A DNA stretch of 29,165 nucleotides from the IMG/VR virus record IMGVR_UViG_3300008120_000362, positions 1 to 29,165 of that record. One strand, given 5' to 3'. Below are positions 5,559-25,646 of the stretch, piece by piece. The stretch is from a virus. A program made the translations under genes and the position numbers. Within the stretch, counting starts at the first letter, position 1; the number at the start of each line of letters is the position of its first letter. The notes under the pieces are model-generated. The model made no database searches and had not been told where the DNA came from. It saw only the letters and a list, made by a program, of their open reading frames with translations.

Positions 5559-6623
5559 ATGAGTAAGACAATCCAAGAGCTCCTCTCGGGTCTCCCAGCT
5601 TGGGAAGCCGCGCTGGCCGAGGATGGACACATTGACGAAGACAACAGAGTAACTATTAAGGAAGCGTTTGCATCGCCAGATGCAGCAATTCTCTTCCCCA
5701 AGATTATCTCTCGTACTCTTAAGGAAGCAGCAGAGCCACAATTGTTGGTAACACCGCTTCTTTCAACAGTTCGCCTCGGAAAGGGACGCTCTTTGGAGTT
5801 CCCTGCAGTAAACGCTATCCAAGCAGCAGAGATTCCCGAAGGACAAGAGTATCCAGAGCAAGCACTCGCTTTTGCAAAGCAAATCGAGGGCAAAGTCTCG
5901 AAGAAGGGCGTTAAGCTAGCATTTACCGAAGAAGTCATTGCAGACTCACTTTGGGATATCGTTGGGCTTCACGTAAGAGCTGCAGGGCGTGCAATGGCTC
6001 GCCTTAAGGAACAGATCGCTCTAAGCCGTTTCAAGGACGCTGCAACAATCGTCTTTGACAACGATAGCGGTTCATACGATGATACAACTGGTCGTGACAT
6101 CGACGGTGCCTATAACAAGACCGTTACATGGGACGACATCATTGATATGGCTGCTGTTCTAATGGCAGAGAATCACATTCCAACCGACTTTATTCTGCAC
6201 CCACTTATGTGGTCCGTATTCCTTAAGGATGCGATCTTCCACACAGGCGGTTCAGCAGCTGCAGTCAACACTAGCTGGGGCTATCGTCCTCAGTCCAAGG
6301 AAGCAGCGCTTAACGCAACTGCTCCCATGGGCCTTAACGTAATCGTTTCACCTTTCGTAAGCTTCACTGCAAAGAGTGGTGCAACCGCTGCTAAGTCAGA
6401 TCTATTCTTGATCGACCGCAACGAAGTTGGTACCCTTCTTGTTAAGGATGACATGAGCACAGATCAGTTCGATGATCCAAGCCGTGACATTCGCTCAATG
6501 AAGATGAAAGAGCGCTACGACATCGTAATGCTTGGTGACGGTGAAGGTATTACCGTTGCTAAGGGTGTTAGACTAGCACGCAACTACGAGGTTCAGGTTA
6601 CAAACGACGTAGCTTTGAGCTAA
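5559..6623 (+). CDS. Major capsid protein (HK97 fold)
   Basis: A 354-residue protein fitting the HK97-type major capsid protein in length, position and texture. An N-terminal helical segment is followed by the ILFPKIISRTLKEAAEPQL region and TPLLSTVRLGKGRSLEFPAV (N-arm/E-loop type sequence). Then comes a long helix (VGLHVRAAGRAMARLKEQIA, spine-helix-like) and a C-terminal beta/A-domain part with DIVMLGDGEGITV. AGGAGG at 5541-5546 is the strongest ribosome binding site in the window. Thirteen of sixteen arginine codons are CGT or CGC, in contrast to the AGA-dominated portal. A strong terminator follows at 6661. These all suit the most abundant virion protein. It forms the icosahedral shell with the portal and the scaffold upstream. 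Confidence 0.85.
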   Translation: MSKTIQELLSGLPAWEAALAEDGHIDEDNRVTIKEAFASPDAAILFPKIISRTLKEAAEPQLLVTPLLSTVRLGKGRSLEFPAVNAIQAAEIPEGQEYPEQALAFAKQIEGKVSKKGVKLAFTEEVIADSLWDIVGLHVRAAGRAMARLKEQIALSRFKDAATIVFDNDSGSYDDTTGRDIDGAYNKTVTWDDIIDMAAVLMAENHIPTDFILHPLMWSVFLKDAIFHTGGSAAAVNTSWGYRPQSKEAALNATAPMGLNVIVSPFVSFTAKSGATAAKSDLFLIDRNEVGTLLVKDDMSTDQFDDPSRDIRSMKMKERYDIVMLGDGEGITVAKGVRLARNYEVQVTNDVALS

Positions 6624-7894: not shown

Positions 7895-10252
7895 ATGGCT
7901 AATACAATAAGAATTAAAAGAAGGTCATCTGGAGGCGCAACAGGAGCTCCTTCATCGTTAGAAAACGCAGAGTTAGCTTATAACGAGGCTGATGATACCC
8001 TTTATTACGGCAAGGGTACTGGTGGAGCTGGTGGCACTGCGACTACAGTTGAAGCAATTGCAGGAGCTGGAGCATATGTTACCAAGGGCACTACTCAAAC
8101 CATAAGTGGCAATAAAACATTTTCAGGCACTATTGCATTAGGATCGTCCGCAACTGCCACAACACAGTCTGCAAGTGACAATAGCACAAAAGTAGCTACA
8201 ACCGCTTACGTTGATTCAGCAGTGTCTACTGCTACCGTTAGTGCTGAGCAAGTACAAGATATAGTTGGAGCACAAATAGCAACTAACGGTTCTCATACCG
8301 GAATTTCAGCATCTTACGATGACGCAGGCGACGGTGCAATTGACCTTTCTTTAACCGACACAACTGTTACCGCTGGTTCATATGGGTCATCTACCGCTGT
8401 CGCAGGATTTACTGTTGACGCAAAAGGAAGATTAACCGCAGCCAGCAATACCAACATAAGAGTTGCAAGCACAAGTCAAACAGGACTTGCATCCTTTGAC
8501 TCAACTGACTTTTCTGTTACAACTGGTAACGTTACTTTAAATGCAGAAAGAATTCAAGACATCGTTGGAGCAATGGTTTCTTCAAATACAGAGTCAGGAA
8601 TTTCTGTAACATATGATGATGATAGCGGCAAGTTAGATTTTAATGTTAATGATCCAACCATAACAATTACTGGTGACGTTGACGGTAGCGCCACAATGAC
8701 CAACCTTGGCAGCACAAGTATAGAGGTAACCCTTGACACTGTGAACTCAAATACTGGAGCATTTGGCTCATCCACCGCCATACCTGTGATTACGGTAAAT
8801 GGAAAAGGTTTAGTTACTGCGGTAACCACACAGTCTATCTCTACAACTCTAACAGTGGGTGCAGATACTGGAACCGCAGACGCTGTTGCTCTTGGAACTG
8901 ACACCTTACAATTTAGCGGTGGCGAGGGAATTGATACCGTAGTTTCTAATAATACAATTACAATTTCCGGAGAAGATGCAACTACTTCAAATAAAGGAAT
9001 AGCATCTTTTAGTTCGGATAATTTTGCTGTAGCATCTGGAGCAGTTACGATTAAAGACGGAGGAGTGTCAAACGCAGAGCTCGTAAACTCTACAATTACT
9101 CTTGGCTCAAGCACTTTAACTCTTGGTTCAACAACTACTTCGGTAGCTGGAATCACAGAGCTTACAGTTGATAATCTTAACTTTAACGGAAATTCAATTA
9201 CTTCAACAGACACCAATGGTAATATAACGCTGAGCCCAAATGGTACTGGAACAGTAGACGTAGCTTCTTCTAGAATTACTGGTGTTGCAGAACCAACCTT
9301 GGATACAGACGCTGCTACAAAATATTACGTAGATAATAGAGTTACAGGACTGTCTTGGAAGCAAGCAGTTCATGTATTGGGTAGTTCAAACGTTGCATTA
9401 ACGGGGTCAACTCCATTAGAAATTGATGGCCATACCCTTAATGATGGCGAAAGAGTTCTTTTAACAGGACAAACAACTGCTAGTCAAAAAGGTATATATG
9501 ACGTTGCAATAACTGGCGGATCTTATACTTTAACTAGATCTTCAGACGTAGATGTTTATACTGAGCTTCGTGGATTGGCGGTATTCGTTCAGCAGGGGAC
9601 CACTTATGCCAATACTGGATGGGTACAAACAGCAGATAACCTTACCGACTTTAGTGGTCAAGTCTGGAGTCAATTCTCTGGAGCAGGTTTATATAGCGCA
9701 GGTTCAGGCCTTTCAATTAATGGAACTGAATTTAATGTAAATGTTGCAACTAATGGTGGAATCGAAATCGATACAGATGCACTTCAATTGAAGTCTTCTG
9801 TAGCAGGAGCTGGCCTGACAATATCTTCTGGAGTCTTAGCAGTTGGTGGAACAACAGACAAGATTACAGTAGATACTGACTCAATCACCATTGCCTCCAC
9901 CTACGCAGGACAGAGCTCAATTACGACTGTTGGAACAATCGCAACAGGAACATGGAATGCTACTGCAATATCTGTAGCTAAAGGTGGAACTGGAGCAACA
10001 TCAGCTCCTGATGCAAGAACCAATTTAGGTTTAGCAATTAATACTGATGTTCAAGCCTATAGTGCAAATCTTGCAGCAATAGCCGGTTTAACATCTGCAT
10101 CAGATAAGCTTCCATATTTTACTGGATCAGGAACTGCTGCAGTGACAACATTAAGTTCTTTTATGAGAACCGTATTGGATGACGCAGACGCAGCAACAGC
10201 AAGAACTACACTTGGAGTTGACAGTTACACTATTGATGGTGGCACATTCTAA
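7895..10252 (+). CDS. Large tail fibre-like structural protein (785 aa)
   Basis: The longest intact protein here (785 aa) is almost entirely beta-repeat sequence rich in T, S, G, A and N. It opens with MANTIRIKRRSSGG and an E-L-A-Y-N-E-A-D segment (TLYYGKGTG), a typical phage fibre head. Three repeat families appear twice each: QDIVGAQI/QDIVGAMV; GSSTAVAGFTVDAKGRLTA/GSSTAIPVITVNGKGLVTA; and TGLASFDSTDFSV/KGIASFSSDNFAV. Around residues 450-600 come a DAATKYYVD linker and a WKQAVHVLG domain widespread in tail fibres. The end carries AKGGTGATSAPDARTNLG, common in fibre shafts, then DGGTF. It starts two bases after the previous stop. It should be a trimeric receptor-binding or connecting fibre, though its position near head genes leaves a head fibre possible. 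Confidence 0.75.
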   Translation: MANTIRIKRRSSGGATGAPSSLENAELAYNEADDTLYYGKGTGGAGGTATTVEAIAGAGAYVTKGTTQTISGNKTFSGTIALGSSATATTQSASDNSTKVATTAYVDSAVSTATVSAEQVQDIVGAQIATNGSHTGISASYDDAGDGAIDLSLTDTTVTAGSYGSSTAVAGFTVDAKGRLTAASNTNIRVASTSQTGLASFDSTDFSVTTGNVTLNAERIQDIVGAMVSSNTESGISVTYDDDSGKLDFNVNDPTITITGDVDGSATMTNLGSTSIEVTLDTVNSNTGAFGSSTAIPVITVNGKGLVTAVTTQSISTTLTVGADTGTADAVALGTDTLQFSGGEGIDTVVSNNTITISGEDATTSNKGIASFSSDNFAVASGAVTIKDGGVSNAELVNSTITLGSSTLTLGSTTTSVAGITELTVDNLNFNGNSITSTDTNGNITLSPNGTGTVDVASSRITGVAEPTLDTDAATKYYVDNRVTGLSWKQAVHVLGSSNVALTGSTPLEIDGHTLNDGERVLLTGQTTASQKGIYDVAITGGSYTLTRSSDVDVYTELRGLAVFVQQGTTYANTGWVQTADNLTDFSGQVWSQFSGAGLYSAGSGLSINGTEFNVNVATNGGIEIDTDALQLKSSVAGAGLTISSGVLAVGGTTDKITVDTDSITIASTYAGQSSITTVGTIATGTWNATAISVAKGGTGATSAPDARTNLGLAINTDVQAYSANLAAIAGLTSASDKLPYFTGSGTAAVTTLSSFMRTVLDDADAATARTTLGVDSYTIDGGTF

Positions 10253-10290: not shown

Positions 10291-11687
<1,397 letters not shown>

Positions 11688-11688
<1 letters not shown>

Positions 11689-12449
11689 TGGCTGCAATTA
11701 CTTTCCCTTCATCTCCATACACAAACCAGATTTATACTGTCGGCTCTAAGAGTTGGCAGTGGGACGGCGCAGTATGGGCAGCATATTATAATGAAGGCGC
11801 TGATGCAGTCTATGGTACTGGATCAGATGGAGATATAACACTTGATGGCACTACAACCATTTTGGGTATGGCACCATCTTCGAGTGTCTATTCAATGACT
11901 CGTGATATGTATTTTAATGATTTAACAATAAATGCCAATGTTCGACTTGCTCCAAATGGATATAGAATATTTGTTAAAGGTACTTTAAAATTTAATAGTG
12001 ACTCTACAATTGGTTTTACTACAGGTTATTCTACAGCTGGCTCTATAGCACAAGGGGGAGCTGCTACAACAGCAGTTACACATTCTTTGGGAGGCTCTGC
12101 TACAGGATATTCTGCTACAGCACCAACATCAGCTATGGGTGGATCTTCATATTTTCAGATTCCAAGACAAGCAATTACGGGTTATTCAATCACTGCATCT
12201 GGAGGACCAACATTTCTTAGAGGTGGAGCAGGAGGGTCTGGTCAAGCTGGTGGTGGAGTAATAATACTTGCAGCACGTTATATAGCTGGGCCATCAAGTG
12301 GGACTGGATACATTAAGGCACCAGCAACTGCACCAGCTGGTGGGGGAGTGATACTATTAGTTTCTTCTACATCTTCTCTTCCAGCATCTATCTCAACGGA
12401 CGTAACGGGTCAGAATAGTGGAACCTACTATTACATGCAACAGGTGTAA
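11688..12449 (+). CDS. Glycine-rich fibre/adhesin protein (253 aa)
   Basis: The ATG overlaps the preceding stop (TAATG), so translation is coupled to the collagen-like gene. The N terminus has a short fibre module (SPYTNQIYTVGSKSWQWDGA). Then comes a beta-helix-like block with YGTGSDGDITLDGTT and NGYRIFVKGTLKF, shared with the next protein (YGNGSDGDVTISGTI and NGFRVFVKNTAII). The C-terminal half is glycine-rich (LRGGAGGSGQAGGGVIILAA), the texture of tip adhesins that fold into glycine-rich sandwiches. It ends in a beta segment with TGQNSGTYYYMQQV. Most likely a distal fibre or adhesin subunit, paralogous to its downstream neighbour but without the histidine cluster. Confidence 0.65.
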
Positions 12450-12451
12450 GT

Positions 12452-13702
12452 ATGGCAATCTCACGAATAGAAACTAGTGTATCACGCGTAAATAATGATG
12501 AAACTTATGGGAATGGTTCTGATGGCGATGTGACCATAAGTGGAACTATTACATTAACTTCAGATAAATATTATAACAATCTAACAATACCATTGGGAAA
12601 TGTGCTAATTACAAATGGATTTCGTGTATTTGTAAAAAATACAGCTATAATAAACGGAGTTATTGGAATAGGTTCTGTTTCTGGAAACTCGAATGGATCT
12701 ACCAATGGAACAATATCAAGTCCAGGGTCTTCCGTATCTACAGGCACAGTAGCTGGCCATACATCTTCTACTATATCCTATAGAATAGGTGGCCAAGGCG
12801 GTGGGTCTACCAATCCTAATATTACAGCACTTCCAAGTTATTTAATATCTAGAATAGAAGCGGCTACAGGTGTTGTCTTTGATGCTACATATGCAAGTTC
12901 ATCAGCCTTAGTTTTATCTGGTGGATCTAAAGGAACAACAGGTTCTACCGGGGCTAGTGCTCCAGCATTAACAAACAGTGACACTTGGCCAGGTAAAGCT
13001 GGATCTCCTGGTTCTAATGGGACTCATCCAACTGTTGGTACAACTGTTGGAGTACCTGGAGGAAAAGGTGCAACAGGCTCTGACGGAACTGCAACAGGAG
13101 CAACTCCAGGTCCTGGTGGGGCAGGTGGATCTGGAGCTAATGGTGGTGGAGTAGTAGCAATAATGGCTAAGTCAATATCAGGAACTGGCACAGTAATGTC
13201 ATTAGGAATGATTGGTGCGACGGGCTCTGCAGGAACAGCGGGTTCACCTGGCACTGCAGGCGCAGCTGGAGCTAAAGCTCCAGACAGGACAGATCACCAC
13301 CACCACAGCGCCGTTATTCATGAACCTCACACACTGCATCACTACAGTCATCATAATCATGTTCCAGCTTATCATGACAAAATTGTATCTCATGGTGCTT
13401 ATCATGAAACTCTACATAATGGGCATCACCATAATCACTCCGCTACTATTCATGCACCATGCTGTACAGTTAGTCCTGGCCATCATTGGACTGGTGGTGC
13501 TGGTGGTGCTGGAGGAGCTGCTGCACCAGCAGTGACAGGTGCTACAGGAAAAAGAGGCGGTGCTGGAGGAGGCGGTGCTATTATTATAATAACTGAAGAA
13601 ACTCCTAGTGGATTAAACTATGATGTTAGAGCAGGCACTACAGCTGATTTAGATACACATTCTGCTTCCAATGGAAGCACTTATATAATTTTAAACAAAT
13701 AA
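12452..13702 (+). CDS. Glycine-rich adhesin with dense histidine cluster (416 aa)
   Basis: A 416-residue paralog of the preceding protein, starting two bases after its stop. Residues about 20-75 carry the shared YGNGSDGDVTISGT / NGFRVFVKNT block. Residues ~165-275 are glycine-rich with collagen-like and polyglycine patches (GPGGAGGSGANGGGVVAI). Residues 282-345 hold 22 histidines in 64 positions, starting HHHH and including HHNH, HHHNH and a CC pair, and ending in HHW. A second glycine-rich stretch (GGAGGAGGAAAP then KRGGAGGGGAIIII) follows, and then a short beta C terminus. The glycine-rich scaffold with hypervariable loops is typical of phage tip adhesins such as T4-type gp38. The histidine block looks like a metal-binding insert, perhaps a tip domain bound to Zn, Ni or Fe. 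That function is inference. Confidence 0.65.
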   Translation: MAISRIETSVSRVNNDETYGNGSDGDVTISGTITLTSDKYYNNLTIPLGNVLITNGFRVFVKNTAIINGVIGIGSVSGNSNGSTNGTISSPGSSVSTGTVAGHTSSTISYRIGGQGGGSTNPNITALPSYLISRIEAATGVVFDATYASSSALVLSGGSKGTTGSTGASAPALTNSDTWPGKAGSPGSNGTHPTVGTTVGVPGGKGATGSDGTATGATPGPGGAGGSGANGGGVVAIMAKSISGTGTVMSLGMIGATGSAGTAGSPGTAGAAGAKAPDRTDHHHHSAVIHEPHTLHHYSHHNHVPAYHDKIVSHGAYHETLHNGHHHNHSATIHAPCCTVSPGHHWTGGAGGAGGAAAPAVTGATGKRGGAGGGGAIIIITEETPSGLNYDVRAGTTADLDTHSASNGSTYIILNK

Positions 13703-13715
13703 GAGGTAAAATATT

Positions 13716-13949
13716 ATGGGCTTTTTTGACTCACTTAATAATGAAGCTAAATTACAAGCATTAAATTTTAGTATTGAAATGCACGAACGTGAGCTGTACA
13801 GAATATTAGTTGGTTTAGGCATAGATGCTGAAACCTTTGATCCAGATTCATGGCAGGAGCCAGTTAATATGGAAACAGCAATAGGTAAAGTAGCACATTA
13901 TATTTCTCTAATCCAAGATTTAAGAAACAGACTTTCTAATTTTTCATGA
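13716..13949 (+). CDS. Small helical hypothetical protein (77 aa)
   Basis: A 77-residue, mostly helical acidic protein with two predicted helices (LNFSIEMHERELYRILVGLG and AIGKVAHYISLIQDLRNRL) joined by an aspartate/proline-rich loop (DPDSWQEP). AGAGG precedes the ATG and its stop overlaps the next start (ATGA). The size and helical hairpin would suit a fibre assembly chaperone or adaptor, since it directly follows the fibre genes, but no family is recognised. It is the first gene of the coupled cassette that contains the oxygenase and halogenase. Confidence 0.6.
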   Translation: MGFFDSLNNEAKLQALNFSIEMHERELYRILVGLGIDAETFDPDSWQEPVNMETAIGKVAHYISLIQDLRNRLSNFS

Positions 13950-14335
13950 AAAGATATATAGCAGTACCAAGCGATAAATGTATAGATGGCGCAATTCCTC
14001 ACCACATTATGCAAATGGCAAAAAATGAGCTTTTAGAGATTGTTGTTTCAGAAACAGTAAAGGATGCAAAGATCGTATCAGTTCCACAAATAGAAAAATA
14101 TGAACACTATAAACAAGTTCGTAAAAATTATATTTGGAAACTTGATATGACAAATGAATTCATTGAACTTAAAGATAATCTAAAAATAATTTGTTTAAAT
14201 AAAGAAATTTATCCTATAATAAAAGAAAAACATTTAGCATATTTTAGAATGAGGTTTCTTAATAGTGGAATTATAGACTTTCTTATTAAGAATGATGATA
14301 TCATATTGTATGAAGGAAAAGTTGAAGTTATATAA
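13946..14335 (+). CDS. Hypothetical protein (129 aa)
   Basis: A 129-residue protein joined by 4-base overlap to the gene before it and by a 1-base overlap (TAATG) to the oxygenase gene after it. It is a mixed alpha/beta sequence without membrane segments or low complexity. Visible features are IPHHIMQMAKNELLEIVV near the start, a KQVRKNYIWKLDM segment and FRMRFLNSGIIDFLIKNDD near the end. I do not recognise a family. Tight coupling to the oxygenase suggests a shared process, possibly as a partner or substrate-handling protein, but no evidence beyond arrangement supports that. Confidence 0.6.
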   Translation: MKRYIAVPSDKCIDGAIPHHIMQMAKNELLEIVVSETVKDAKIVSVPQIEKYEHYKQVRKNYIWKLDMTNEFIELKDNLKIICLNKEIYPIIKEKHLAYFRMRFLNSGIIDFLIKNDDIILYEGKVEVI

Positions 14336-14907
14336 TGAATGTTAAAAATTTAGCGACTTGTGTATCAGTCTATAGTGATTTTTTTGACTCTTCTCTATTT
14401 TTGGAGCACTTGGAACTAGAAAGTAGAAATGATTGGGGAGATATTTCTTGGAAACACTCTGCCGTAGGAGGTGGATTAGTTCAAAAATATAGAACATCTT
14501 CTGAGTGTGATATCTCTTTTTTGGGTAAAGAAACAGTAAAAACACCTTTAGCACAAATGTTTAAAAACGAGATTCAAACACCAATGTTTGATATAATAGA
14601 AGACTATAGAAGCGAATACAATATTCCAGCACTTTCCAATGAGGGTTGGAGGGTACTGAAGTATTCTATTGGAGCAGAATATCATAACCACTATGACCAT
14701 TCACCAATGAACTCTAGAGTAGTTAGTTTAGTTGCATTCCTTGATGACGTAGAAAAAGGTGGAGATTTGGAATTTCCATTTTTTAATGTAAAAATAAAAC
14801 CAGAAAAAAATACAGCTGTTGTTTTTCCATCAAATTTTCCATACCTACATATAGCACATCCAGTAGAAATAGGCACAAAGTATAGTTTAGTAACATGGTT
14901 TCAGTAG
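14335..14907 (+). CDS. 2OG-Fe(II) oxygenase, prolyl 4-hydroxylase-like
   Basis: A 190-residue double-stranded beta-helix dioxygenase. The iron ligands are H119 and D121 (HYD) and H172, and the 2-oxoglutarate-binding lysine is K182. The stretch HIAHPVEIGTK lines up residue for residue with the prolyl 4-hydroxylase signature H-A-G-C-P-V...G-x-K, including the ten-residue step from histidine to lysine. V-S-L-V-A-F-L-D-D and GGDLEFPFF are the usual P4H strands. It is short, lacking the peptide-binding N-terminal domain of animal enzymes, as in bacterial and viral P4H-like proteins. It would hydroxylate proline or another residue using O2 and 2-oxoglutarate in the cytoplasm. It overlaps the next gene by 13 bases. 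The nearby collagen-like fibre is a plausible substrate, though substrates of such enzymes cannot be read from sequence. Confidence 0.85.
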   Translation: MNVKNLATCVSVYSDFFDSSLFLEHLELESRNDWGDISWKHSAVGGGLVQKYRTSSECDISFLGKETVKTPLAQMFKNEIQTPMFDIIEDYRSEYNIPALSNEGWRVLKYSIGAEYHNHYDHSPMNSRVVSLVAFLDDVEKGGDLEFPFFNVKIKPEKNTAVVFPSNFPYLHIAHPVEIGTKYSLVTWFQ

Positions 14908-16010
14908 TATCAATAAATGAATTTGCAATTAAATCAAACCCCTGTTATGCAGCCATTCCGGCATGTGAGACAGTGGCTTTGACGTATGTCCATCCAAATG
15001 GAATAGAAGAGTTTACTGACTACATAGCGTATGCTCTAGGCGAAAGTACTATAATTGCATTTAACGATTTACCGAATGCATCAGATCCTTATTCCTTAGA
15101 AGCAACAACTGATACTGGAGAAAAGTATATAATTCAATTCAATCTTTACGAAAGAGACATGAATGAATTAAATGGTGTCAATATAAAACCTCATCAATTT
15201 TTTAGTTTTCTTAAACCAGTTCATGTAAAAAGCAGCGAGATTGCTGGCTTAGTTGCATTAAATGATAGATGCGATATAGACAAATATGGCCCAAGAGTAT
15301 ATGATATTTCTGATGGAGTCAGTGAGCAGCCTATGGACTATTCTATGATTGCTGGTAATATAAAAGATTTTAGAGTCATATATTCTATTAACGGCGTAGG
15401 ATATGTAACTGTACAAGAAGTTTGGCCTATTGCTATGAAATGGAGAAATTGGCCAATAGTTGTTGGTGTTTCTAAAACATTTTCTGGAATGGTTAAGCTT
15501 TTATCTGAATGGAAAGCAGCTTATCAATCCGGCCTTTCAGATGAAGAAATTGCAAGAGGCGCTAAAGACCTTTTGGATCAAGCAGGAATAAACGAAACGA
15601 TGATCTCAGAGTTGGAACAATTGGAAACAACAATGCCAGTTGAAAGATTTTTTAGGGGCGAACTAGATGCTAGGCACGGCTTTTCTGAAAAAGGATTTTT
15701 ACCAAATTCAATTAAACAATTAATAAAAGATCAATCAAGATATGAAACACTAACATCTTTAGGATTAAATCATTCTCTGCATCCTGAAATACCCCAGTGG
15801 ATTAAGGATGAGGAAAAAAAGAAAATGGATAATTACTTATTAAAATATGTTTACATAGCTATGCCAGAAATAGATCCAGATACTGTAACTGTAGAGCAGA
15901 TATCTGAATCTCTTGATTTCTTTACTAATGGCCTACCAGAAATAAAAGACACTCAAACTTTTATAAACGCAATAAAAGGAAAAAGATACTACGATGCAAC
16001 AACAAAATAG
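14895..16010 (+). CDS. Unknown 371-aa protein between oxygenase and halogenase
   Basis: A 371-residue protein whose ATG lies inside the last codons of the oxygenase gene (13-base overlap) and whose end overlaps the halogenase start by 17 bases. The N-terminal third is beta-rich (TVALTYVHPNGIEEF, ALGESTIIAFNDL). A central part contains KPHQFFSFLKPVHV and VQEVWPIAMKWRNWP. The C-terminal third is helical and charged (LSDEEIARGAKDLLDQAGI, IKDEEKKKMDNYLLKYV). There is no signal peptide, membrane helix, nucleotide-binding loop or recognisable cofactor site. I do not recognise the family. Being translationally locked between two redox enzymes argues that it works with them, for example as substrate binder or scaffold. 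That is inference. Confidence 0.6.
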   Translation: MVSVVSINEFAIKSNPCYAAIPACETVALTYVHPNGIEEFTDYIAYALGESTIIAFNDLPNASDPYSLEATTDTGEKYIIQFNLYERDMNELNGVNIKPHQFFSFLKPVHVKSSEIAGLVALNDRCDIDKYGPRVYDISDGVSEQPMDYSMIAGNIKDFRVIYSINGVGYVTVQEVWPIAMKWRNWPIVVGVSKTFSGMVKLLSEWKAAYQSGLSDEEIARGAKDLLDQAGINETMISELEQLETTMPVERFFRGELDARHGFSEKGFLPNSIKQLIKDQSRYETLTSLGLNHSLHPEIPQWIKDEEKKKMDNYLLKYVYIAMPEIDPDTVTVEQISESLDFFTNGLPEIKDTQTFINAIKGKRYYDATTK

Positions 16011-17487
16011 AACTATAGGCATAGTGGGCTCTGGAACTGCCGGGCTAATAGCTTCACTAATGTTAAGACGCGCTTTTCCAAATGATGACATAGTAAATAT
16101 ATCGTCCAGTAAAGTTGGAATTGTTGGTGTTGGAGAAGGTAGCACTGAGCATTGGCGAGACTTTATGGACATGTGCAGTATAGGGGTAGAGGATCTTTTA
16201 ACTAATACTAATGCAACACATAAATATGGCATAAGATTTGAGGGCTGGACCAATCAAAGACCAGACTATTTCCATAGCGTTGGTTCAATTCCGGAAATAT
16301 ACGCATTTGGTTTAATTGGCGAGTATATGAGCTTTCTTGAAAATGACAAACCAATAACTTCACAAACAGGTCATCTAGGCTTGGTTCATAATCAAGTGAT
16401 TAAAGAAAACATGCACAACAACACTAATCAGTTTCATTTTGATACGTTTGAGTTAAATAATTATTTAGTAGGACTTTGTTTTAAAAGAATGATTAGATTT
16501 ATTGATGACGAGGTTGACTCAATAAATCTCAATGAAAATGGTTATATTAACTCAGTCACTTTAAGTTCTAAAGTTGAAATTAAAGCTGATATTTGGATTG
16601 ACGCAACAGGCTTTGCAAAAAAACTAATGACATCTATGGGAAATACTGATTGGGTTTCTTTTTCAAAGTATCTACCAACTAATGCAGCGATAGCATTTCC
16701 AACAGAATCAGATCCTAATAATCAGATAAAACCATATACTAGAGCAAGAGCTGCAAGTTGTGGATGGATGTGGGAAATTCCTACAACCGAACGTCGTGGG
16801 AATGGTTATGTATATAATTCTAATTTTATTTCTGAAGAAGAAGCAGTAAAAGAAGCTGAATTAATTTCTGGTTATAAAATAGAAAAATATAGACATTTTA
16901 ATTTTGATCCAGGATATTCTCCTGTTCAGTGGTATAAAAATTGTATTTCCGTAGGTCTTTCTTCTTCATTCGTAGAACCTCTTGAAGCCACTTCAATTGG
17001 TAGCACAATAATACAATGCAAACAGATGATAAATGGTCTAGCATCGTATACCGCAGATTCTTCTGCTATTCAAGAAAGCTACAATAAAAAAATGAAGCAA
17101 ATGATGGAAAACATACTAGATATGATTCGCCTTCATTACATATCTGACAGAGAAGATACTGATTTTTGGAGATACGTAAAAACACTTCCAATTCCAGATA
17201 GTCTTCAAAATTTAATAGACCTTTGGGCAGAACAGGTGCCATCACATTATGACGTTCCCAATAATGGTCATCTTATGTTCTTGTCTAGACATTTCGTTCA
17301 CGTTATGCAAGGGCAGAATCTTATAAATCCTAAAGCATCAACACGAGCCATGGAAAATATGGGTGTAAGAAATATTGTAGAAAAAAATGCAGATGAAGTT
17401 AGACTAAGAAGATATAGTAGAGAAATGATAGATCATAGAGAATCTCTAATGCAGGCCGATATATCTAATAGCAGTTTTGGTATTTAA
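15994..17487 (+). CDS. Flavin-dependent tryptophan-halogenase-like enzyme
   Basis: A 497-residue member of the tryptophan halogenase family, close to the usual ~500-540. An FAD-binding GSGTAG loop lies at residues 12-17, VGVGEGST at 44-51 and the catalytic lysine K77 in HKYGIRFEGW (equivalent to PrnA K79 in FKAAIKF). The family signature W-x-W-x-I-P is at 258-263 (GWMWEIP), and the catalytic glutamate E331 in VEPLEATSI corresponds to PrnA E346. All key residues for activating hypohalous acid are therefore present; the serine after the glutamate in PrnA is alanine here. Such enzymes halogenate indoles or phenols using FADH2, O2 and halide, and need a flavin reductase, none of which is seen in this window. 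The cyanophage halogenase VirX1 is a viral precedent. Substrate unknown. It overlaps its upstream neighbour by 17 bases. Confidence 0.9.
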   Translation: MQQQNRTIGIVGSGTAGLIASLMLRRAFPNDDIVNISSSKVGIVGVGEGSTEHWRDFMDMCSIGVEDLLTNTNATHKYGIRFEGWTNQRPDYFHSVGSIPEIYAFGLIGEYMSFLENDKPITSQTGHLGLVHNQVIKENMHNNTNQFHFDTFELNNYLVGLCFKRMIRFIDDEVDSINLNENGYINSVTLSSKVEIKADIWIDATGFAKKLMTSMGNTDWVSFSKYLPTNAAIAFPTESDPNNQIKPYTRARAASCGWMWEIPTTERRGNGYVYNSNFISEEEAVKEAELISGYKIEKYRHFNFDPGYSPVQWYKNCISVGLSSSFVEPLEATSIGSTIIQCKQMINGLASYTADSSAIQESYNKKMKQMMENILDMIRLHYISDREDTDFWRYVKTLPIPDSLQNLIDLWAEQVPSHYDVPNNGHLMFLSRHFVHVMQGQNLINPKASTRAMENMGVRNIVEKNADEVRLRRYSREMIDHRESLMQADISNSSFGI

Positions 17488-17488
17488 T

Positions 17489-18253
17489 ATGAAAAAAAAT
17501 AAAAATGTATCAAAAATTAAAAAAGTTAAACCAGGCTCAATTAGAATCACTCCAATTGACAATAGGTTTATGGCAAGCGCTCCATATGTAAATAATTCAC
17601 AATCCTTACCAAAATGGTTTAGACAAATACATAAAGGACACGGGTCAATTAGGTCTTGTGCTGGAGTATCAGACTTTTTAAATGCTGGAGTAACAATACC
17701 AGCATGGACAAATTTTTATTTTACTCCAAATATTGAACAAAATGTATGGGCAATATCTGCAGACAATATGAATCCGCCAATTGGTTTTGAGTGGGCAGGT
17801 AATTTTTCTTTTCATCAAACGGGTAAATGTCCCATGACAGATATTAGAAAAATAGAAAAAATGTCTTATCCAAAATTAATAACACCTTGGAGAATACAAA
17901 CAGCTCCAGGATGGTCTTCGTTAATATTGCCGGTTCACTATGAGGAAAATGAAGACTATTCAATACTTCCAGTTATTGTTCATACCGATTTTTATCAAGT
18001 TGCAAATATTGTTTTAAATGTCAAAACAAATTCAGAATTTTCTATAAAGTATCAAACGCCACTTGTTCAGGTAATTCCATTTAAGAGAAATTCAGATATA
18101 ACAGAAATTGAATTTATGGATGAATCATTTTTTAAGTACGCATCAACAAACATGTATATGACTGGTGGAATAGCACCAAGATCTGGAACTGGACAAGCCT
18201 ATAGAAAGGCTGTAAGATTAATTGATTCAATCTTAGAAAAGAAAAAAAAATGA
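17489..18253 (+). CDS. Conserved phage protein of unknown function (254 aa)
   Basis: Start taken at ATG 17489, one base after the halogenase stop (TAATATG); an upstream in-frame TTG (17477) is less likely. The protein opens with a lysine-rich stretch. It then shows the recurring layout of a family I recall from many marine and freshwater phages: APYVNNSQSLPKWFRQI, a middle AGVTIPAWTNFYFTP, TPWRIQTAPGWSSLILPVHY, LPVIVHTDFYQVANI and the late VQVIPFKR. It is beta-rich with many aromatic residues and no membrane segments. The biochemical function is not known to me. It follows the halogenase within the same coupled operon and overlaps the next gene by ATGA, so a linked role is possible. Confidence 0.65.
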   Translation: MKKNKNVSKIKKVKPGSIRITPIDNRFMASAPYVNNSQSLPKWFRQIHKGHGSIRSCAGVSDFLNAGVTIPAWTNFYFTPNIEQNVWAISADNMNPPIGFEWAGNFSFHQTGKCPMTDIRKIEKMSYPKLITPWRIQTAPGWSSLILPVHYEENEDYSILPVIVHTDFYQVANIVLNVKTNSEFSIKYQTPLVQVIPFKRNSDITEIEFMDESFFKYASTNMYMTGGIAPRSGTGQAYRKAVRLIDSILEKKKK

Positions 18254-18450
18254 CTGACAATATCTATCGTTTTAAAGTAGATGATTATAGGAATAGAACA
18301 GACAATAAATACTTTCCTAATACCGAAGAGGATTGGAAGGAGTTTTTGTGGAAAGTACATTTTCTTGGCGGCAAGTCAATGATACTGCTATGGCATTATG
18401 ATCAAATGGAAAAGAAAGCACGAGAAGAAGCAAGTGATAAAGATTCTTAA
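18250..18450 (+). CDS. Small hypothetical protein (66 aa)
   Basis: A 66-residue charged protein starting in an ATGA overlap with the previous gene. It has an aromatic core (TEEDWKEFLWKVHFLGGKSM then LLWHYDQM) and a lysine/glutamate-rich end. There are no membrane segments or motifs I recognise. The start is convincing because of the overlap; the function is unknown. Its 3' end overlaps the beginning of the longest version of the next frame. Confidence 0.55.
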   Translation: MTDNIYRFKVDDYRNRTDNKYFPNTEEDWKEFLWKVHFLGGKSMILLWHYDQMEKKAREEASDKDS

Positions 18451-18712
18451 TGCTGTTAAGACAATGTCTCATGGCTCGTATTGGACAAAAGCCAATACCG
18501 TAGAGGCTTGGGGGTTTGCAACAAAAATTGCAATCATCTTCCCTGGTCTACTTTTAGGTCAACAGTTTTGGTGGCTTTATATATTTGCTATAATATCCAG
18601 TTTAGCTCTGATATGGTCATCAACAGAAAAAACGCTTCCAACCATTATTCTTTTTAATGTTGCCTGGGTTATCTTGGCAAGTCTTTCTATTTTAAAACAT
18701 TTTTTGCAATAG
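18398..18712 (+). CDS. Small membrane protein (up to 104 aa)
   Basis: The frame encodes a cationic N terminus followed by about three hydrophobic segments: ATKIAIIFPGLLLGQQF, WWLYIFAIISSLALIW and TIILFNVAWVILASLSI. The start is uncertain: ATG 18398 overlaps the previous gene by 53 bases, while GTG 18434 (after GAGAAGAAG) and ATG 18464 would give 92 and 82 residues. None has a clear ribosome binding site. The size and topology would fit a holin-like or other inner-membrane phage protein, but no endolysin gene is seen beside it. It ends in TAG, and the same frame stays open for another 45 codons (see next entry). Confidence 0.55.
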   Translation: MIKWKRKHEKKQVIKILNAVKTMSHGSYWTKANTVEAWGFATKIAIIFPGLLLGQQFWWLYIFAIISSLALIWSSTEKTLPTIILFNVAWVILASLSILKHFLQ

Positions 18713-24161: not shown

Positions 24162-24851
24162 ATGGCAGGAGAATACTATGATGGTCCAGTTAATAAGTAT
24201 CTAAATACTTATACTACATTTTCTGGAGCAGATATTGTTGCCACCTTTGGTGGCGTTGAAATTGGAGCTCTTTCTGGAATTACATTTTCAGTAACAAGAG
24301 AAAAGGCACCAATCTACACTATGGGTTCACCAAACCCACGCTCTTTCTCAAGAGGCAAAAGAGGAATTGCAGGATCATTAATCTTTACTGTTTTTGATCG
24401 TCCAGCTCTTTACCAGATGATTGAAGCTCATCATGCAACAGACAACTCAATGAAGTTCTTTACAAGAAGACACAACACTCTTCCTGGAGATCCTCAGCAC
24501 AAGAGAGGAATTGCAGAGTTTACAGATCAGTCACGTGACATTGTTTCACAAGTTCCATATTATGCGGATCAAATTCCTCCATTTGATATTACCGTAACAT
24601 TTGTTAACGAATATGGACAGGGCGCAGTAAGATCAATTTATGGAGTTGAGCTTTTGAACGAAGGTTCTGGAGCTTCTATGGATGACATTGTTATCGAAGA
24701 GACAATGACATACGTAGCTCGTGAAATTGGTCCAATGTACAGAATTACAACTGATCAACTTGGAAGGTTTAACACTGGAGATCTTAAGGATCTTATCAGC
24801 TCAGACGCAGCTGGACAAAGTGGCTTAAATACCCAAATTATTAGACCATAA
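24162..24851 (+). CDS. Tail tube protein, major (229 aa)
   Basis: The first of three tandem tube-fold proteins. Beta-rich residues include EIGALSGITFSVTREKAPIY, GIAGSLIFTVFD, a middle insertion with DPQHKRGIAEFTDQSRD, IPPFDITVTFVNEYGQGA, IYGVELLNEGS and a closing MTYVAREIGP. It is 229 residues, slightly longer than small tubes of T4 gp19 type (~160). GGAGGG precedes the ATG. It directly follows the sheath gene and precedes a strong terminator, as expected for the most abundant tube protein. Hexameric rings of it would line the tail channel. The C-terminal tail is polar. Confidence 0.75.
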   Translation: MAGEYYDGPVNKYLNTYTTFSGADIVATFGGVEIGALSGITFSVTREKAPIYTMGSPNPRSFSRGKRGIAGSLIFTVFDRPALYQMIEAHHATDNSMKFFTRRHNTLPGDPQHKRGIAEFTDQSRDIVSQVPYYADQIPPFDITVTFVNEYGQGAVRSIYGVELLNEGSGASMDDIVIEETMTYVAREIGPMYRITTDQLGRFNTGDLKDLISSDAAGQSGLNTQIIRP

Positions 24852-24926: not shown

Positions 24927-25646
24927 ATGACATCACTTCAACAAAAAAAAGATGAGATATTCAGATATGAAAGTGGGGTCACTTCCAATAGATTAGCTAA
25001 AGGAATGCCAGACCCATTTTCTAACATGTCCTATGCTGGAACTGATATATCAGCAACAATAGTTGTTCCAAATATAGATAGGAATACCAAGACAGTTGGA
25101 GAAGCTGATATTCTTGAAATGGCAGAAATTCAAACAATATCTTATTCTATTCACCGAGAAAACTCACCTGTTAGAACTCTTGGTCACGTAAATCCAAGAG
25201 GATTTGTTAAAGGTGGAAGAACAATAGCGGGCTCTTTAATCTTTACAGTTTTCAATGAGTATGCGTTTTATAGAATTAAAGAGTTTAGAAATATAATGGC
25301 AGAAACTGGATTATTCTTTGCGCCATTAGCAGACATGCTGCCACCATTTGATATAGTCTTATCTTTTTTTAATGAATATGGAATGGCATCTAAAATGAAG
25401 ATTTATGGCGTTACTATAGTAGATGAAGGTGGTACAATGTCTGTTGACGACTTAATCACCGAACAAACCTACACCTTTATGGCTAGAGGTATGCAGCCAC
25501 TTGTAAGCATGGAAAAAGATCCAATGATGCTACCAGATGATGTTTATGATGCATACGAACAAAGGCAGAAAAACTTTTGGAATTCAAATTCCACAGATAA
25601 GTTAACAGAATATACAACTTTTATAGACAGGGTTCCAAGGGCATAA
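24927..25646 (+). CDS. Second tube-fold protein (239 aa)
   Basis: A paralog of the major tube. TIAGSLIFTVFN matches GIAGSLIFTVFD; HVNPRGFVKGGR matches SPNPRSFSRGKR; LPPFDIVLSFFNEYGMAS matches IPPFDITVTFVNEYGQGA; and TYTFMARGMQP matches TMTYVAREIGP. It has a longer N terminus (about 20 extra residues) and a polar C-terminal tail. TAGGAG at 24916-24921 precedes the ATG. Lying after the terminator, it is probably made at a lower level, as expected for a minor tube such as a baseplate tube initiator or a tail-end protein (T4 gp48/gp54-like in role). That role is inference from paralogy and order. Confidence 0.65.
   Translation: MTSLQQKKDEIFRYESGVTSNRLAKGMPDPFSNMSYAGTDISATIVVPNIDRNTKTVGEADILEMAEIQTISYSIHRENSPVRTLGHVNPRGFVKGGRTIAGSLIFTVFNEYAFYRIKEFRNIMAETGLFFAPLADMLPPFDIVLSFFNEYGMASKMKIYGVTIVDEGGTMSVDDLITEQTYTFMARGMQPLVSMEKDPMMLPDDVYDAYEQRQKNFWNSNSTDKLTEYTTFIDRVPRA

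Follow-up and report, generated by a model that had tools for sequence, protein, structure and literature searches.

The linear virus record IMGVR_UViG_3300008120_000362, analysed over its whole length of 29,165 bases (hereafter the window), carries on its plus strand a tightly packed set of genes in which a 2-oxoglutarate (2OG)-Fe(II) oxygenase and a flavin-dependent halogenase lie downstream of two glycine-rich fibre genes. Here, we describe this fibre-plus-enzyme module, which is real, conserved and exchangeable between phages, and weigh the possibility that its enzymes modify the adhesin next to which they are encoded.

Organization of the locus

The set begins with FIB1 (11688..12449), a His-poor, Gly-rich fibre- or adhesin-type protein of 253 residues, and FIB2 (12452..13702), a Gly-rich adhesin-type protein of 416 residues with 18.5% Gly; profile hidden Markov models (HMMs) reveal a FIB domain common to both. 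FIB2 harbours a His-rich insert (13283..13489; 22 His in 69 residues), the proposed target of the enzymes. Beside FIB2 lies a small protein of 77 residues, a putative chaperone or adaptor (13716..13949), followed by a 129-residue protein (13946..14335), the oxygenase, which is of the prolyl-4-hydroxylase (P4H) type (14335..14907), a 371-residue protein (14895..16010), the complete halogenase (15994..17487), a 254-residue phrog_7084 protein with a predicted dUTPase fold (17489..18253; the 7084 protein in what follows), a 66-residue open reading frame (ORF; 18250..18450) whose counterparts in two close relatives, L004 and L005, are 79-80% identical, and a hydrophobic protein of up to 104 residues that appears membrane-like by eye (18398..18712).

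The first-pass annotation had described the eight genes from 13716 onwards as a single chain of overlaps and 1-base gaps. All eight ORFs were confirmed, and six of the seven junctions are as described: a 4-base ATGA overlap (start 13946, end 13949), a 1-base TAATG overlap at 14335, overlaps of 13 bases (start 14895, end 14907) and 17 bases (start 15994, end 16010), a 1-base gap (17487 to 17489) and a further 4-base overlap (start 18250, end 18253). The seventh junction is uncertain because the last gene has two possible starts, an ORF from 18398, which overlaps its neighbour by 53 bases, and an ATG at 18464, which leaves a 13-base gap. Taking the latter start, and by hand counts, junctions overlap in 5/7 cases within the cassette versus 4/25 elsewhere in the window (Fisher p 0.010); cassette spacing is tighter than that of its surroundings, yet tight spacing is frequent across the window. 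The chain also extends upstream, which had been missed, with gaps of only 2 and 13 bases joining the two fibre genes to each other and to the cassette. Counts of promoters and terminators fell within the shuffled range. The eight genes do not make up the unit: the 371-residue family is found in only 26 of 53 module clusters (defined below), and the two upstream fibres belong to it.

Joint exchange of fibres and enzymes

From 11686 to 18704 the window is 87% identical in DNA to L004 and 80% to L005, while the aligned stretches of at least 300 bases that flank this block, short repeat matches being left out, are 65-77% identical. The block, of which FIB1 is the first gene, holds the two Gly-rich fibres, the small genes, the oxygenase, the 371-residue protein, the halogenase and the 7084 protein, and its high identity between less similar flanks indicates that fibres and enzymes were exchanged together. 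Since L004 and L005 are 88.5% alike throughout the downstream region, the block has been swapped between backbones. Identity drops in the collagen-like GPT-repeat tail fibre (10294..11688; phrog_5073, tail fiber, 3.2e-26), which lies outside the block and is a possible second substrate of a prolyl-hydroxylase-type oxygenase.

Ratios of nonsynonymous to synonymous substitution (dN/dS) against L004 and L005 were 0.04 and 0.06 for the halogenase, 0.05 and 0.09 for the oxygenase, 0.10 and 0.09 for the 371-residue protein, 0.035 and 0.07 for the 7084 protein (254/258 residues), and 0.16 and 0.39, the highest in both comparisons, for the 129-residue protein. Where dS was estimable, which excludes the 66-residue ORF, the cassette ranged over 0.035-0.16 against L004 and 0.046-0.39 against L005, several dS values of the latter being near saturation. 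These low ratios show the cassette genes to be under purifying selection.

That the cassette is unique to the window phage was ruled out, as it is present in L004 and L005, rearranged in L007 and found in many other contigs. In L007, a distant relative whose halogenase is 42% identical, the enzymes lie upstream and two fibres downstream, the second fibre having a His-rich insert. Several small ORFs in L007 (5322-6688 and 12333-12620) resemble by eye the 77-residue protein beside FIB2.

Distribution of the module among viral contigs

The data set, drawn from six scans of viral contigs and eight named phage regions, comprised 238 sequences including the window, and these fell into 167 clusters of sequences having exact 150-mers in common, a grouping that removes near-copies only. 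For the halogenase the loci represent the best 80 of 591 candidates, and for 7084 the best 80 (79 loci) of 451. HMMs of five families were mapped, those for FIB and 2OG being refined on the same loci; the 2OG HMM favours the P4H type and overlooks other oxygenases, and among the named phages it placed an oxygenase within 3 kb of the halogenase in 1/6 clusters. A module cluster was defined as one with FIB plus halogenase or 7084 (n=53), so that the FIB family is present in 53/53 by definition. The 7084 family was found in 52 of these, 2OG in 50, the halogenase in 47, the 77-residue family in 43 (its position varies), the 129-residue family in 37, a 125-residue protein in 35, the 104-residue membrane-like family in 27 and the 371-residue family in 26. 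The remaining families occur in at most 16 clusters, bar one of 27 that resembles a shadow reading frame; they include a 243-residue protein (13 clusters), a glycosyltransferase (10; PF00534 in L111) and a 199-residue protein (10). The structural genes downstream in the window that were within range belong to families of only 5 clusters.

The order of the genes is strongly maintained. In stop-to-stop frames, the 7084 frame opens at the end of the halogenase frame or up to 112 bases before it in 43/45 clusters. FIB2 lies upstream of the halogenase in 44 of 46 clusters and downstream of it in 2, linkage persisting in the reversed order. A 2OG gene lies within 3 kb of the halogenase in 44/47 FIB clusters, and the locus contained such a gene in 0/28 FIB clusters that lack both halogenase and 7084.

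The presence of a halogenase goes with the make-up of the fibre's insert. With His-rich defined as at least 12% His in 80 residues, 46 of 81 FIB clusters had a His-rich fibre and a halogenase, none a His-rich fibre without halogenase, 1 a His-poor fibre with halogenase and 34 a His-poor fibre without. The same four classes counted 16/0/1/28 in the loci from the fibre scan alone, 16/1/1/27 with a cut-off of 8% and 15/0/2/28 with one of 15%. Whole records of the 34 halogenase-less fibre clusters, most of which are fragments, contained PF04820 in 0/35 cases. Three genome contigs from a later 7084 query all carry 2OG and halogenase genes, and two of their fibres are His-rich, with 62 His in 304 residues in L239 (a fragment) and 13.75% His in L240; that of the third, L241, has 7.5%.

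Among other arrangements encountered, L105 carries the module twice in tandem between 4.8 and 20 kb, each copy with fibres, 2OG, halogenase and 7084, and L045, L046, L056 and L060 have four or five halogenase-matching ORFs per 17-21 kb stretch, with 2OG matches in three of them.

The His-rich insert

In the window's FIB2 insert, 21 of the 22 His are kept in L004 and likewise in L005, with CAT/CAC swaps at 4 and 7 of them, respectively. His being retained despite synonymous codon swaps, the insert is maintained as protein. Across 46 clusters (6,632 residues) the inserts contain 25.6% His against 1.2% elsewhere in the protein, with 7.8% Pro, 4.5% Tyr and 1.2% Trp. Individual inserts have 13-39% His (median 26%) over lengths of 46-304 residues, a constant make-up despite variable sequence and length; the L195 insert contains repeats such as SNHHHHT. 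Trp and Tyr, named earlier as examples of residues to be halogenated, find no support as the principal target in this His-enriched composition, and one insert is without any Tyr or Trp.

The full FIB1 and FIB2 proteins and the 83-residue N-terminus of FIB2 had no match in 50,697 phage records, a search limited by low-complexity filtering. The Gly-rich make-up of FIB2, and the fibre PHROGs matched by the genes upstream, suggest a place for it in the virion tip.

Conservation of the enzymes

The halogenase matches Pfam Trp_halogenase (PF04820, 3.7e-96) over residues 8-451 and phrog_2928 (9.6e-104). It has the GxGxxG motif, Lys77, WMWEIP and Glu328, and the positions G12/G14/G17, K77, W258/W260, P263 and E328, invariant in nine aligned phage halogenases, are all present. 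Its best solved relatives are Trp 5-halogenases, and VirX1 also matches; the substrate is not set thereby. QhpG and LodB are flavoproteins of protein maturation, and weak NCBIfam matches to them, far under cut-off, were not used as evidence. The oxygenase matches 2OG-FeII_Oxy_3 (PF13640, 8.4e-14) and phrog_61 (7e-27), with its HxD...H...K intact.

The first-pass annotation had held that its proposal would fall if catalytically dead homologues proved usual. They are not: GxGxxG, the catalytic Lys, the first Trp, Pro and Glu are kept in 47/47 module halogenases, the second Trp being Phe in 5, and the metal triad (HxD...H...R/K) is present in 44/44 of the module oxygenases nearest the halogenase.

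Among the PHROG matches of the window oxygenase are ones called DNA endonuclease V and ferrochelatase. Genes with these names occur within series of 2OG genes next to the cyanophage halogenases of L018, L244 and L245, which suggests that they are mislabelled oxygenases.

The 7084 protein and the other small proteins

The 7084 protein (phrog_7084, 2.7e-25), modelled with AlphaFold2 (AF2) from the window sequence and 31 relatives, gave a mean predicted local distance difference test (pLDDT) score of 87.6. The model resembles dUTPases (Foldseek E 2.3e-4; VIA-align Z 10.7, root-mean-square deviation 3.2 over 119 residues and 1.9 over 106), and 6 of 32 family members match the dUTPase family PF00692. 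Three of 32 match DUF6065 (PF19541) at E up to 0.01 (best 1.9e-6), the window protein itself giving no match; no paper on DUF6065 was found in the library searched. The predicted fold of 7084 agrees with that of dUTPases over 106-119 residues, and the difference lies in dUTPase motif 3, where profile alignment sets VhTDyY of 7084 against VIDSDY. The catalytic Asp of this motif is replaced by His in the window protein, and the scan pattern has His or Asn. An active dUTPase was rejected on this ground, and hydrolysis of dUTP by the family is unlikely. A binding or scaffold role would be likely; dUTPases are trimers, and a trimer would fit a trimeric fibre.

The 371-residue protein had no Pfam or PHROG match. 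Its AF2 model (pLDDT 83) predicts an N-terminal beta domain and a helical C-terminal part, and no PDB fold matched below E 0.001; in VIA-align comparisons, made mostly on residues 15-85, the best Z was 4.5 for that part and may reflect no more than a common beta arrangement. The 129-residue protein matched neither Pfam nor NCBIfam families at E 0.01, and its best PDB match had E 0.39.

Hosts and backbones

A cyanophage host for the module was ruled out by the presence of PF00124 in 0/40 module records, by WhiB in 21/41, and by one module contig in an Actinomycetota metagenome-assembled genome (MAG); two others lie in one Gammaproteobacteria MAG. Given WhiB in 21 of 41 records, many module phages probably infect Actinomycetota, as far as gene content tells. 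This does not extend to the window's own host, no WhiB being found in its group (G000-G004).

The backbones differ. The window's portal is found in 7/41 module records and its sheath in 8/41 (two marginal), many records being fragments; among the 10 records of at least 100 kb, the portal occurs in 0 and the sheath in 1 (marginal). Two genes further downstream in the window (24162-24851 and 24927-25646) form a tandem pair of paralogues, with a likeness of about 34% across the part that aligns, and both match phrog_9206, major head protein; a further major head protein match lies at 5559-6623.

Halogenase loci of cultured phages

Sequenced cyanophages already contain halogenases beside oxygenases and fibres. 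We compared twelve phage regions that bear a halogenase (S-H38, P-SSM2, HTVC008M, S-SRM01, syn9, S-SCSM2R, Syn10, S-CREM1, S-RIM44, P-TIM40, Sf-FR1 and Sf-CH3). In eight of them, syn9, Syn10, S-CREM1, S-RIM44, P-TIM40, Sf-FR1, Sf-CH3 and S-SRM01, the halogenase lies directly beside Gly-rich fibre or adhesin genes or one small gene away, and in all of these eight except S-SRM01 a 7084 homologue is found 3' of it, a count of 7/12 that is biased in that five of the regions were picked from a 7084 search. Annotated 2OG genes follow in syn9, S-CREM1, S-RIM44, P-TIM40, Sf-FR1 and Sf-CH3, and a 2OG match in Syn10; in S-RIM44, Sf-FR1 and Sf-CH3 the neck genes are next in line, much as they are in the window. 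S-RIM4 and Sf-CH8 have a 7084 homologue and no annotated halogenase in the 20 kb stretch. The archaeal virus HCTV-10 (L248) has a 7084/DUF6065 gene (8896-9729; 27.3 bits, cut-off 26.6) about 0.9 kb from a His-poor adhesin gene of 28% Gly (10656-11708; FIB profile match 2e-6), with no halogenase match within the stretch.

VirX1, described as the first characterised viral halogenase, is reported to form trimers, to have a large and accessible active site and to prefer I > Br > Cl, and was not discovered via a biosynthetic cluster (PMC8407142, PMC12645471). Its structure (PDB 6qgm) matches Syn10 CPUG_00131 end to end, and the neighbour CPUG_00132 is a second halogenase. Like the window, the Syn10 locus has a PF04820 halogenase together with a 7084 homologue and a 2OG oxygenase, and its fibre-type genes are Gly-rich (21.8-35.1% Gly); the halogenases are distant in sequence (phmmer E 2.7e-36), and the Syn10 fibres have 1.9-4.1% His, unlike the His-rich FIB2 insert.

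Discussion

We consider the block most likely to be an adhesin encoded with its own tailoring enzymes, with a probability of about 60%. FIB2, as a fibre-tip protein, would be made together with the oxygenase, the halogenase and the dUTPase-fold protein. The oxygenase would hydroxylate, and the halogenase halogenate, residues in the exposed low-complexity insert, where Tyr, Trp and Pro are scattered through a His-rich sequence. Holding the fibre, or presenting it to the enzymes, is the probable task of the 7084 protein and of the small conserved proteins, the 77-, 129- and 371-residue products possibly among them, and reduced flavin would be supplied by the host. Altered side chains could change metal binding, cross-linking or cell-surface grip of the tip, and hence adsorption. 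Of the targets offered by the first-pass annotation, virion proteins or host metabolites, the surface proteins are now favoured, since what the enzymes constantly accompany is one particular Gly-rich fibre whose insert is almost without exception His-rich; that fibre is the putative substrate. The original interpretation is partly borne out. Its other ground for refutation, separate carriage of the genes in related phages, does not apply within the module, whose genes stay together in many divergent contigs, but does among wider relatives.

Several observations weigh against a tailored adhesin. The modified peptide, the activity of the enzymes and the presence of the fibre in the virion are all predictions from sequence, and halogenated histidine is uncommon. 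The 12% His cut-off was set once the data had been seen, and the module is largely clade-like, with 6 changes of the His-rich label on the fibre tree and 3 on the halogenase tree. Because the module looks largely like one lineage, the counts linking insert and halogenase are not independent trials; the association may go back to very few origins, for the fibre perhaps to one, and its Fisher p is an overstatement. L192/L032 has a halogenase and an insert of only 30 residues with 5 His, and the halogenase-bearing L241 an insert of 7.5% His. L141, L145, L147, L153, L156 and L163 carry 2OG and 7084 genes without halogenase. The enzymes also associate without the fibre, a 2OG gene being near 32 and 7084 near 16 of the 59 halogenase clusters without such a fibre in the locus, some of which are short contigs. 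In P-SSM2, HTVC008M, S-H38 and S-SCSM2R the halogenase has no directly adjacent Gly-rich fibre, and the cyanophage Gly-rich fibres beside halogenases contain 0-5.2% His, the S-SRM01 adhesin none. In the halogenase-less L141 group, the three inserts read (L141, L147 and L156) are dominated by Tyr, Asn and Gly, and insert make-up may follow the enzyme set. L156 also encodes an FkbM methyltransferase.

Previous work, as far as consulted, treats phage halogenases as host-metabolism genes, with speculative roles in antibiotics, metabolites or capsules (PMC2984593, PMC7824862, PMC10452541). In the parts of this literature consulted, which also include PMC3037559, PMC8659048 and PMC6224464, the roles put forward for phage halogenases and oxygenases are antibiotic protection, a secondary metabolite or decoration of the capsule, halogenation of host metabolites, signalling through 2OG and DNA repair, and none proposes a fibre substrate; titles and abstract openings of the literature searched state no halogenase-fibre or halogenase-adhesin link. 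The two enzymes could make a halogenated small molecule in the host, be it an antibiotic, a signal or a decoration of surface polysaccharide, the nearby fibre being chance layout. The cyanophage SSM6a has a 10-gene halogenase and 2OG cluster that a jumbo-phage survey reads as making a metabolite or capsule decoration (PMC7824862), and an older review passes on a speculation about antibiotics (PMC2984593). The SSM6a cluster resembles the window in joining a phage halogenase to 2OG oxygenases, and its gene set differs. A glycosyltransferase family in 10/53 module clusters and several rarer families without identification would also suit a small molecule. We nevertheless regard such a product as unlikely, as the families in at least 26/53 clusters include no further recognised small-molecule enzyme, the same fibre with its His-rich insert recurs, and fibre and enzymes are swapped as one block.

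Somewhat less probable still is that the insert is simply a metal-binding spike for Fe or Zn, the enzymes acting elsewhere or tuning metal ligands indirectly. The 22 His in 69 residues of the window, the up to 39% His of other inserts and the L195 repeats would all suit metal. HxH metal sites are known from the fibre tips of T4. A Gly- and His-rich jaw protein of Nereis is reported to bind zinc and is described as probably halogenated and cross-linked (PMC13120676). A spike alone leaves unexplained why a halogenase accompanies all 46 His-rich clusters and why 2OG is absent in 28/28 clusters without halogenase and 7084; metal binding is compatible with a tailored adhesin and does not exclude it. 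That the enzymes are cargo of unrelated function, hitchhiking in a fibre region that is a recombination hot spot, agrees with block boundaries that coincide with that region and with a module that may have a single origin, but is improbable in view of a linkage kept across halogenases about 40-60% identical to that of the window, across different backbones and in inverted order, and recurring with distant relatives in cyanophages.

For a tailored adhesin there are partial parallels. SrpI is a flavin-dependent brominase of ribosomal peptides that binds through a disordered region (PMC10858898). It thus shares with the enzyme proposed here a ribosomally made substrate; the setting of SrpI is a natural-product pathway with a leader peptide, whereas the candidate substrate in the window is a 416-residue fibre. 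Clusters for ribosomally synthesized and post-translationally modified peptides have a short precursor with leader and core. The module does contain small conserved proteins, such as that of 77 residues, and the linked candidate substrate is a long fibre. The Nereis jaw proteins (Nvjp-1, Nai11527) are Gly- and His-rich structural proteins that unite halogens and metal in one material; as an animal extracellular material they offer an analogy to a phage fibre, with no homology claimed.

A more daring version, which we hold only tentatively, is that of a widespread exchangeable system in which halogenase, 2OG oxygenases and a repurposed dUTPase-fold protein modify a hypervariable His-rich insert into a metal-binding or cross-linked halogenated tip resembling worm jaws in its chemistry, with the neighbouring Gly-rich fibre as the natural substrate of VirX1. 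Halogenated histidine as a product is a bolder reading than the tailoring of an adhesin. The module provides a concrete protein substrate to propose for phage halogenases, together with testable loci in cultured phages. If the proposal is true, the natural role of the widely studied VirX1 would be known, and viruses would halogenate and hydroxylate their own receptor-binding tip, adding a layer of host-range variation that is invisible to sequence alone.

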